The notes beneath the pieces are model-generated. The model ran no database searches and had not been told where the DNA came from. It saw only the letters and a list, made by a program, of their open reading frames with translations. A DNA stretch of 64,000 nucleotides from a virus. The position numbers were made by a program, and so were the translations under genes. Where the stretch lies: IMG/VR virus record IMGVR_UViG_3300032304_000672, positions 39,696 through 103,695 of that record; one strand, given 5' to 3'. This document shows, in pieces, positions 60,219 to 61,907 of the stretch (its first letter is position 1; every line of letters begins with the position of its first letter).

Positions 60219-60466
60219 GTATATATCAAGAAAAAGCTAAAGAGTGTAAATGTTGTGGAAAGCACGTGCCACTTCCAACAGTTCTAAAAGAATATAATGG
60301 AGTTTCAGTATGCCCAACCACATTTGCTAATGTTATAGAATATAAAAGAATGTGGAAGTCTTTAGGAAAGAGACCATCTGGAAGTATAAGAAAACATTTT
60401 TCTGATTATGTTCAGCAATTAGTAGAAGAAACTATTGACAAAAATGAAGACGGAACGTTACAATAG
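60215..60466 (+). CDS. Small cysteine-rich protein after terminase
   Basis: An 83-residue basic protein overlapping terL by 4 bases. Cys11, Cys13, Cys14 and Cys33 (ECKCCGKHVPLP, NGVSVCPTTF) could form a zinc finger, followed by helix VIEYKRMWKSLG and a C-terminal helix FSDYVQQLVEETIDK. It resembles small zinc proteins beside terminases, which may include HNH-like or packaging accessory factors, but the HNH residues are absent. The tRNA promoter begins in its 3' end. Confidence 0.6.
   Translation: MSIYQEKAKECKCCGKHVPLPTVLKEYNGVSVCPTTFANVIEYKRMWKSLGKRPSGSIRKHFSDYVQQLVEETIDKNEDGTLQ
60435..60464 (+). promoter_or_regulatory. Full promoter for the tRNA gene
   Basis: TTGACA (60435-60440), 18-base spacer, TACAAT (60459-60464). 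Predicted start near 60471, four bases before the tRNA. It lies within the 3' end of the preceding gene. Confidence 0.7.
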
Positions 60467-60474
60467 ATCAACTG

Positions 60475-60548
60475 GCACCAGTAGCCAAGTTGGTCAAGGC
60501 CCCGAACTCATAATTCGGCTATCGTAGGTTCAAGTCCTACCTGGTGTA
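60475..60548 (+). tRNA. tRNA with anticodon CAT (Met, elongator, or Ile2)
   Basis: Full cloverleaf: acceptor GCACCAG (60475-60481) with CTGGTGT (60541-60547, one G-U pair), D-stem GCC/GGC, anticodon stem CCGAA (60502-60506)/TTCGG (60514-60518) with loop CTCATAA, T-stem GTAGG/CCTAC with loop TTCAAGT, discriminator A60548. CCA is not encoded. It lacks the three G-C pairs of initiator anticodon stems, so it is elongator Met, or Ile2 if C34 is modified to lysidine. Own promoter just upstream. Confidence 0.93.
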
Positions 60549-60561
60549 CTAAGGAGATATT

Positions 60562-60885
60562 ATGCATGACGATAAATATGATGACGGCGATTCAAGGCTG
60601 GCATACTACCTAGAAATAGGCGCAGTGTCTTTAGAAGGCATGGATGAAAACGGCGAGATGATATTTTCTATAAGCGAAACGGCAAAAGAAATAGCACCAG
60701 AACTGTGGCAGTCACACATAGAATATGTTGATAAGTCTCTTATGGAATTATATGAGGCGGGTCTGGTTGAAGTTGAGTATGATGAAAACCTAGAAGCAAC
60801 ATTGCACTTAAGCCCAGAAGGACAAAGGGTTGCCAAAGAAAAAGGTCTAATTGAATTGGATATGCCAGACATTCCAAACGATTAA
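60562..60885 (+). CDS. Conserved small acidic protein, winged-helix-like
   Basis: A 107-residue very acidic protein. Pattern: YYLEIGAVSLEGMDENGEMIFSISETAKEIAP, then a helix HIEYVDKSLMELYEAGLVEVEYDENLEATLHLSPEG in adjoining parts, and a C-terminal helix. The helix-then-beta-wing arrangement (LYEAGLVEVEY...ATLHLSPEG) is like a winged helix. Similar proteins are frequent in aquatic phages, with no known function. AAGGAG precedes the ATG. The tRNA ends 13 bases upstream, so both may share a transcript. Confidence 0.65.
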   Translation: MHDDKYDDGDSRLAYYLEIGAVSLEGMDENGEMIFSISETAKEIAPELWQSHIEYVDKSLMELYEAGLVEVEYDENLEATLHLSPEGQRVAKEKGLIELDMPDIPND

Positions 60886-60891
60886 AATTTA

Positions 60892-60900
60892 TGATATAAT
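60892..60900 (+). promoter_or_regulatory. Extended -10 promoter for hsp20
   Basis: TGA-TATAAT (TATAAT at 60895-60900). Predicted start near 60907, giving a 55-base 5' UTR that starts exactly at the first hairpin. Confidence 0.65.
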
Positions 60901-60906
60901 TATATT

Positions 60907-60961
60907 AGGATGCCCTTAAGGGGTCCTATAAATTAACTTATTCGCTTGAAGGAGGAATAAA
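60907..60961 (+). promoter_or_regulatory. Candidate ROSE-like RNA thermometer in the hsp20 5' UTR
   Basis: Two hairpins. The first pairs AGGA (60907-60910) with TCCT (60924-60927) around the palindrome CCCTTAAGGG. The second pairs 60938-60947 (TTATTCGCTT) with 60952-60960 (GAGGAATAA) around a GAAG loop: nine pairs and one bulged G at 60944. The ribosome-binding site AAGGAGG is buried in it. The 5' arm holds UCGCU, which fits the ROSE consensus U(U/C)GCU, and its G is bulged opposite AGGA as in ROSE elements. Heat would open the site. Confidence 0.6.
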
Positions 60962-61381
60962 ATGGTAACAACATATACATGGGATCTTTTTAAAGATCCT
61001 TTTTTTATTGGCTTTAACCGTGAGATTGAAAGAATGGCTAATGTGCACAATGCTGCATCACGCCAATCATATCCACCATACGATGTATTAAAGCTAGATG
61101 AAGATACATATCAGGTATCTCTTGCAGTGGCAGGATTCACAAAGGAAGACATTAGCCTATCAGTAGACAACGGCACCCTTGTGGTATCTGGAGAAATTAC
61201 AGAAGTTACAGACGCAGAGGTTTTGCACAAAGGAATTGCTGCTCGTAAGTTCACACGCTCTTTTGCCCTAGGAGAATATATGGAAGTCTCTAGCGCATCT
61301 CTAAAGGACGGTATGCTTAATATTAATATTGATCGTATTGTGCCTGAAGATAAAAAGCCAAAAATCATCAAAATCAAATAA
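60962..61381 (+). CDS. Small heat-shock protein, Hsp20 / alpha-crystallin family
   Basis: A 139-residue chaperone. The N-terminal arm is short (TTYTWDLFKDPFFIGFNREIE), then the alpha-crystallin domain from about 37: YPPYDVLKLDEDTYQVSLAVAG, EDISLSVDNGTLVVSGE, ASLKDGMLNINIDRIVP (matching A-x-L-x-D/N-G-x-L), and the C-terminal I-x-I anchor in PKIIKIK. It holds unfolding proteins without ATP. Phage copies may help virion assembly or protect phage proteins under heat. Expression probably responds to temperature through the hairpin masking its AAGGAGG. Confidence 0.93.
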   Translation: MVTTYTWDLFKDPFFIGFNREIERMANVHNAASRQSYPPYDVLKLDEDTYQVSLAVAGFTKEDISLSVDNGTLVVSGEITEVTDAEVLHKGIAARKFTRSFALGEYMEVSSASLKDGMLNINIDRIVPEDKKPKIIKIK

Positions 61382-61385
61382 ATAG

Positions 61386-61391
61386 TATAAT
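61386..61391 (+). promoter_or_regulatory. -10 box before the structured RNA region
   Basis: TATAAT 5 bases after the hsp20 stop; start expected near 61398, at the first hairpin. A second TATAAT (61482-61487) lies just before the nuclease ribosome-binding site and may be a separate promoter. Confidence 0.55.
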
Positions 61392-61396
61392 GGTAG

Positions 61397-61480
61397 TCTG
61401 CACCCCGTCACTGGGGAGTCGCAGATTATATGCGGGCCGCTACCCGCAGGATGGACCTGAGCATGTCCGCAAACTGCTCT
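61397..61480 (+). ncRNA. Structured RNA: leader of the nuclease gene or small RNA
   Basis: A GC-rich island in AT-rich sequence with three hairpins: TCTGC (61397-61401) with GCAGA (61421-61425), enclosing CCCC/GGGG; GCGGG (61432-61436) with CCCGC (61443-61447); and GGAC (61453-61456) with GTCC (61465-61468). It has no ORF of note. It is not a tRNA by shape, and matches no riboswitch that I know. It could be a riboswitch-like leader for the nuclease gene, or a separate small RNA made from the promoter at 61386. Confidence 0.5.
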
Positions 61481-61499
61481 TTATAATTTAAGGAGAATC

Positions 61500-61907
61500 A
61501 TGTTCGAGTATTATGTTAAAAAGGTTACTAAGGTTGTGGATGGGGATACAATCGATGTAGAGATTGATCTTGGATTTGATATCTCATTTAGCTCAAGAGT
61601 AAGGCTTGCTGGTATCGATACACCAGAAAGCAGAACAACAGATAAGATGGAAAAGGCGCTAGGGCTTGAAGCAAAAGCTTATCTTAAGCATGAAATTGAG
61701 GCTGCTAAATCTGTTGTTATTAAAACAGAAAAGATGGACTCGTCAGAAAAGTATGGAAGAATTTTGGGATGGGTTTTCCTTGATGGCTCATCAGTATCTT
61801 TAAATGAAAAAATGATTGCAGACGGACATGCCTGGGGATACTTGGGAGATACTAAGGTTAAAGACTTTAACGCCTTAGCAGAGAAGAGAAAAAAGAGCGG
61901 TAAGTAA
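61500..61907 (+). CDS. Staphylococcal nuclease-like (thermonuclease) protein
   Basis: A 135-residue OB-fold nuclease. The catalytic residues occur at the same numbers as in the mature staphylococcal enzyme: Arg35, Asp40 and Glu43 (RVRLAGIDTPES) and Arg87 (KYGRILG), with the opening VTKVVDGDTIDVEIDLG. It needs Ca2+ and cuts DNA and RNA. There is no signal peptide, so it acts in the cell, perhaps in host DNA breakdown or DNA repair. AAGGAG precedes the ATG. It overlaps the FmdB-like gene by one base. Confidence 0.92.
   Translation: MFEYYVKKVTKVVDGDTIDVEIDLGFDISFSSRVRLAGIDTPESRTTDKMEKALGLEAKAYLKHEIEAAKSVVIKTEKMDSSEKYGRILGWVFLDGSSVSLNEKMIADGHAWGYLGDTKVKDFNALAEKRKKSGK

Follow-up and report, generated by a model that had tools for sequence, protein, structure and literature searches.

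The hsp20 locus and its promoter

The window analyzed here is a 64,000-nucleotide stretch of viral DNA spanning bases 39696-103695 of a 103,695-base IMG/VR virus record. On its plus strand, an open-reading frame (ORF) of 139 amino acids (60962-61381) encodes a product that is assigned to Hsp20 on the basis of its matches to PF00011 (6.5e-19) and phrog_432 (3.3e-37), and which constitutes the single PF00011 match in the whole record. A tRNA with a CAU anticodon (60475-60549) is located between the terminase and hsp20 genes. No PF00589 integrase was detected across the 103.7-kb record, which may be partial, and the lytic-type lifestyle put forward in an earlier sequence-only reading of this DNA is thereby weakly supported. 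Genome contigs searched for a host yielded no close relative. One contig binned as a Phycisphaeraceae MAG (L230; 3001) encodes an Hsp20 31% identical to that of the window behind the same two-hairpin leader, but it is probably a phage contig and names no host.

Several structures lie downstream of hsp20. At 61383-61452, a TATAAT sequence is followed by two hairpins (CUGCACCCC..GGGG..GCAG and GCGGGCCGCUACCCGC, the latter with a CGCUA loop kept in relatives), and these immediately precede an H-type pseudoknot at 61453-61479 with the arrangement GGAC-CUGAGCAU-GUCC-GC-AAACUGCUC, in which GGAC pairs with GUCC (P1) and the loop sequence GAGCA pairs with the tail UGCUC (P2). P2 covaries over 56 versions of the pseudoknot (GAGCA/UGCUC, GGACA/UGUCC, GGGUA/UGCCC and GGGCA/UGCCU), and two further copies are found in the record on the minus strand (G000 18260 and 19819); the pseudoknot has no Rfam match. 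Together, hairpins and pseudoknot resemble a structured RNA that separates hsp20 from the nuclease gene. Five relatives (L037, L040, L069, L072 and L073) carry a different structured-looking RNA (CCCACACAGGACCUUAGAGAUGGUUUAGUUACC...UGUGUGGGG) at the same place. A long, repetitive Ala/Thr-rich coding stretch runs from 62150 to the end of the record (64000).

Upstream of hsp20, an extended -10 promoter element, TGATATAAT, is located at 60892-60900 on the plus strand. The sequence TGNTATAAT is present at 129 of the 136 distinct loci of the window's clade (78 of 79 in the first set), and other phage clades maintain the same spacing with different promoters. Based on the position of the extended -10, transcription is predicted to start at about 60906-60907. 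The leader thus proceeds from TGATATAAT to UAGGAUGCCCUUAAGGGGUCCUA (hairpin H1, 60906-60928), a spacer, UUAUUCGCUUGAAGGAGGAAUAA (hairpin H2, 60938-60960) and, at once, AAUG.

Structure of the hsp20 leader

Both H1 and H2 are present in the minimum-energy and centroid folds. The leader and start region are more stable than dinucleotide shuffles (z -2.2, 5/200), but a single fold with such a score is weak evidence, so we judged the role of chance by conservation in relatives. H1 has the structure UAGGAU-G-CCC-UUAA-GGG-GUCCUA, pairing inward from U60906-A60928 and leaving G60912 bulged, in agreement with the earlier proposal of a second hairpin starting at the predicted 5′ end of the transcript. 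The Rfam ROSE_3 consensus contains a matching GAUGCC..GGGUC hairpin, which identifies H1, at the level of sequence, as the counterpart of hairpin I in short ROSE elements. We also considered whether the UCCU in the 3′ arm of H1 could compete with H2 for the Shine-Dalgarno (SD) sequence. Such pairing is possible in the window, but the arm is not conserved (GUAC, GGUC and others elsewhere), and this candidate was discarded.

H2 is the predicted thermosensing hairpin and holds the SD sequence AAGGAGG (60949-60955). Its outer pairs are U60938-A60960, U60939-A60959, A60940-U60958, U60941-A60957, U60942-A60956 and C60943-G60955; inside the bulged G60944 they are followed by C60945-G60954, U60946-A60953 and U60947-G60952, closing on a GAAG loop. 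The ROSE signature UCGCU (60942-60946; consensus U(U/C)GCU) faces AGGA at 60953-60956, the second AGGA of AAGGAGGA. G60944 is unpaired in both folds and is also bulged in the alignment to our covariance model (see below), so that the opposition of UCGCU to AGGA and the single bulged G reported in the sequence-only reading both hold in the fold. That reading also had the hairpin fully masking AAGGAGG. G60952-G60955 are indeed paired, but A60949, A60950 and G60951 sit in the loop, and the SD is therefore partly, not fully, paired.

Conservation of the leader across phages

Relatives comprised eighty close ones plus sets gathered with other Hsp20 queries, and they show the two-hairpin layout. Among non-redundant phage hsp20 leaders, 184 of 192 contain UYGCU within their last 45 nt, compared with 4% of shuffles, and every member of the window's clade has it. 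The eight remaining leaders include several automatically miscalled start codons, two instances of ACGCU and one or two unrelated sequences. The layout is found in the named phages Syn1, S-CRM01, S-H38, S-B05, S-8S53, Melnitz, HTVC103P, HTVC115P, C48C1, Phosso, Atu_ph07 and AG-345-E15. Across different promoters, the leader recurs before hsp20 in uncultivated phages as well as in cyanophages, pelagiphages, rhizobial jumbo phages and a Methylophilales phage. The hsp20 leader of Vibrio phage PWH3a-P1 is devoid of a ROSE-type element, indicating that the element is not universal. The loss of SD pairing in homologous phages had been named beforehand as an outcome that would speak against a thermometer; as these counts reveal, homologous phages keep it.

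The search for covarying pairs suggested in the same reading was also productive. In 51 diverse leaders, compiled with the window's clade left out, H1 covaries strongly, with 72 cells changed on both sides versus 28 in shuffled data (0/500), and one H1 pair appears as G-C, A-U, C-G and U-A. H1 with its bulged G is present alongside UYGCU in 164 of 182 phage leaders, and the bulged-G motif Y-G-C-Y is common to H1 and H2 in nearly all of them. The core of H2 is 94% paired and nearly invariant in the 51 leaders. This near-fixation reflects the fact that one of its strands is the SD, whose bases hardly vary, which also places the core pairs beyond covariation testing. The third pair below the bulge (U60941-A60957), just outside the SD core, is paired in 98-100% of the leaders and does vary: most phages have C-G, pelagiphage-type leaders have A-U and the window's subgroup has U-A. 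Many leaders of the clade have a five-pair core plus bulge, and these may be too weak for good SD masking when warm.

We derived a covariance model (R1) from the 51 diverse leaders. With E up to 10, its sole match in the window, and in the 103.7-kb record, is at 60906-60964 (32.3 bits, E 1.1e-6). R1 recovers all the clade loci tried except one, and its lone strong match in 624 kb of unrelated phage DNA (L583) is another hsp20 leader. A complementary, gene-blind search of IMG/VR used a pattern for the H2 core only, CTCGCTTN{2,6}AAGGAGA. An ORF follows 108 of its 121 matches; 89 of these 108 ORFs encode Hsp20 and at least four more are truncated Hsp20-like starts, whereas a permuted pattern used as a control yielded no Hsp20 among 32. 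The notion of a general leader for the genes of this phage was rejected, because the H2 core and R1 each match once in the record. Besides hsp20, ROSE-type leaders were observed before small unknown proteins of 70-84 aa (L464, L429, L453 and L411; R1 28-47 bits) and before a peroxiredoxin-like gene on a viral contig (L414; R1 37.6 bits), and the H2 core alone before another such small protein (L494) and before a DnaK-like gene on a viral contig (L524).

Relationship to known ROSE elements

By definition, ROSE-like elements have two to four hairpins, a predicted bulged G and a U(U/C)GCU sequence whose pairing with the SD is imperfect (PMC11342760, PMC11182007, PMC9450479). The window displays U(U/C)GCU opposite the SD, the bulged G, two hairpins with the SD in the 3′-most one and a small heat-shock gene downstream, a feature that is typical of, but not obligatory for, the class. 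None of the Rfam ROSE models matches the window with E up to 10. The window is hence not a member of Rfam ROSE_3 (RF02523), falling below its gathering cut-off of 43 bits, and is ROSE-like by the motif definition. On the phage contig L470, ROSE_3 scores 43.5 bits, above the cut-off; sub-threshold scores, that of Melnitz among them, of 34.1 bits (L232) and 21-30 bits (others) are always at the hsp20 leader. ROSE_3 also scores 69 bits at the hsp20 leader of L237, where R1 matches a bacterial-type ROSE with E 0.005. L237 is an unverified 22.6-kb record, 'Pseudomonas phage Y7', that carries an IbpA-like gene and looks like host DNA; we infer that its hsp20 is a host ibpA. L231 is an unrelated bacterial hsp20. 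Conservation in distant phages, covariation, the R1 match to a bacterial-type ROSE and the L470 score thus uphold the earlier assignment to ROSE on motif and layout, and we regard the hsp20 leader as, almost certainly, a conserved ROSE-type SD-pairing element.

Other assignments fared poorly. A FourU thermometer was dismissed because the partner of the SD is UUCGCUU and H2 contains no UUUU. Rfam searches of the window, at the gathering cut-off and at E up to 10, returned the tRNA and otherwise chance matches, those to tsr31 and Plastid-ycf2 being due to chance or to the tRNA read backwards.

The known element that the phage leader resembles most is the short ROSE of Pseudomonas ibpA (RF02523). 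This validated element is a 61-62-nt leader with two hairpins; of the two, only hairpin II melts, and the leader works in E. coli reporters (PMC3669281). Both share a leader of ~56-62 nt from the transcript start, a hairpin I with the GAUGCC..GGGUC core, a hairpin II combining U(U/C)GCU, bulged G and SD, an unpaired AUG and a small heat-shock gene downstream. In contrast to its bacterial counterpart, the leader described here precedes a phage gene, is AU-rich, scores under the Rfam cut-off in the window, follows an extended -10 instead of a sigma32 promoter and is succeeded by a terminator-like hairpin within the ORF; in part of the clade, it also has a longer UUAUUC/GAAUAA lower stem. The ROSE1 of Bradyrhizobium hspA and the E. 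coli ibpA ROSE share with it U(U/C)GCU against the SD, the bulged G and a location in a small heat-shock 5′ UTR, but have three to four hairpins. The papers found name three phage RNA thermometers, namely lambda cIII, SPbeta blyA (fourU) and the leader of a sigma70 gene of a gut Caudoviricetes (fourU) (PMC11182007, PMC10586365). These are likewise phage-borne structured leaders for which temperature sensing has been proposed or shown, but they are not of the ROSE type, are not associated with hsp20 and are not known to recur across distant phages. We found no cyanophage or phage ROSE elements or hsp20 thermometers in the open-licence literature, and an earlier report elsewhere is possible.

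Probable temperature response

The best overall explanation, and one that we consider well favored, takes the leader to be a ROSE-type translational element, short and with two hairpins, to which the window's clade adds a second layer within the ORF. In the proposed mechanism, H1 would cap the 5′ end of the transcript and remain folded, while in H2 the SD would be held by U-C-(bulged G)-C-U, so that fewer ribosomes load at ordinary temperature; upon warming, or under some other proteotoxic condition, H2 would loosen and Hsp20 would be made. By analogy with bacterial elements, the leader probably acts as a thermometer. We infer the thermal switch from the conserved destabilizing bulge and from the tested bacterial ROSE relatives, in which the bulged G lowers stability and is required for the response (PMC3669281, PMC11342760).

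Nearest-neighbor folding predicts little temperature dependence. AGGAGG is 34-37% unpaired at all temperatures from 5 to 50 C, and H2 remains closed to 50 C, although its energy weakens from -8.3 kcal/mol (20 C) to -3.3 kcal/mol (50 C). The absence of predicted melting in the window between 5 and 50 C, together with the placement of H1 at the 5′ end, as in mRNA-stabilizing hairpins, would suit a leader whose hairpins only set a low constant level of translation and shield the 5′ end of the mRNA, with no useful temperature response. Yet the model, which excludes the non-canonical pairs of ROSE, is also a poor predictor for a bacterial-type ROSE, whose unpaired fraction goes from 0.04 (20 C) to 0.26 (50 C). 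Since the bacterial element opens so little in the same model, the flat prediction is a weak objection to a thermometer, and the preservation of the exact ROSE signature, destabilizing bulged G included, across phages with different promoters runs counter to a constant brake, which we deem improbable.

The leader could instead be a protein-binding site, most likely for Hsp20 itself, with temperature acting by way of misfolded protein that titrates Hsp20, and not by melting alone. There is precedent for this in E. coli, where IbpA represses its own ROSE-bearing mRNA and leaves it on heat (Miwa et al. 2021, reviewed in PMC8155344). The occurrence of the bulged-G Y-G-C-Y motif in both hairpins, as in a twofold protein site, and the near-exclusive association of the leader with hsp20 fit this explanation; leaders of the same type before the peroxiredoxin-like gene (L414) and the small proteins (L464, L429, L411 and L453) do not, and neither does the free variation of the H1 stem sequence provided that pairing is kept. 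On balance, we find a protein-binding site rather unlikely, although Hsp20 autorepression may act on the same leader and is compatible with a thermometer.

A terminator-like hairpin within hsp20

Two points go beyond the sequence-only reading: the element belongs to phage hsp20 genes in general, and the ORF itself contains a constrained terminator-like hairpin. The latter consists of GGGAUCUUUUUAAAGAUCCU followed by UUUUUU (60981-61007, plus strand) and comprises eight pairs (three of them G-C), a loop of 4 and UUUUUUA, which corresponds to the shape of an intrinsic terminator (a stem with G+C and an immediate U tract). No other terminator-like site lies in 60400-61560, for which shuffles give a mean of 0.9, and the hairpin is a feature of 53 of 54 clade leaders versus 1 of 138 others.

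The hairpin occupies codons 7-16, for which we counted synonymous changes in 133 ORFs on a tree based on the remainder of hsp20. Codons of the stem and U tract have changed very rarely (D-4 once, D0, F2 and F3 never, I4 twice), compared with 23 changes in the loop codon F-2, 15 in the neighboring F6, 21 in P1, which lies between stem and U tract, and about 14 in a typical two-fold codon. GATC is preceded by G in 131 of the 133 ORFs despite 15 changes of the amino acid at that position (M, L, W, G), and two relatives with different amino acids (MGSIFT; L062 and L180) retain GGATCT..AGATCC. The constraint, as the codon usage indicates, is selection on the nucleic acid, and its shape is that of an intrinsic terminator. 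These patterns contradict a purely protein-level cause, in which hairpin and U tract would be a by-product of the D-L-F-x-D-P-F-F sequence, even if the DPF motif does occur in distant phage Hsp20s that lack the hairpin. The repeated GATC could, in turn, be a DNA site. That the hairpin is a protein by-product or DNA-level site, and not a terminator, we view as distinctly less probable than not.

The position of the hairpin suggests how a terminator might operate. The footprint of an initiating ribosome usually reaches about +15 to +19, and the 5′ arm starts 20 nt past the first base of the AUG (+21), so that it would sit just beyond that footprint. As long as H2 is closed, no ribosome would load and RNA polymerase should halt near +50 of the ORF; once H2 opens, the first ribosome would cover the hairpin and transcription would continue. 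H1, H2 and the in-ORF hairpin are mutually compatible in one fold, and the switch would therefore be the ribosome, not refolding. The in-ORF hairpin might alternatively pair with the SD (UCCUU/AAGGA), but this option was discounted, as it needs CCT and most relatives have CCA. Position and sequence constraint thus make a translation-coupled attenuator an evenly balanced proposition. As in translation-coupled transcription attenuation, the terminator-like hairpin would be covered by an initiating or elongating ribosome; unlike in that system, the hsp20 leader has no leader peptide and no alternative antiterminator.

Implications for phage hsp20 regulation

None of the three phage thermometers named in the papers found is of the ROSE type (PMC11182007); here, a ROSE-type leader recurs before phage hsp20 genes. 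We tentatively propose, leaning somewhat against it as a complete account, that the opening of the ROSE element is read twice, first by admitting the ribosome and then, over codons 7-16, by the ribosome disarming the terminator, so that temperature would set both translation and transcript completion, with ROSE as a regulatory device common to the hsp20 genes of phages as diverse as cyanophages, pelagiphages and rhizobial jumbo phages. If the in-ORF terminator is real, it would provide a compact conversion of a translational thermometer into a transcriptional one. If the leader is a thermometer, phage Hsp20 would be an infection gene tuned by temperature or proteotoxicity, and the element would establish a testable link between water temperature and phage physiology.
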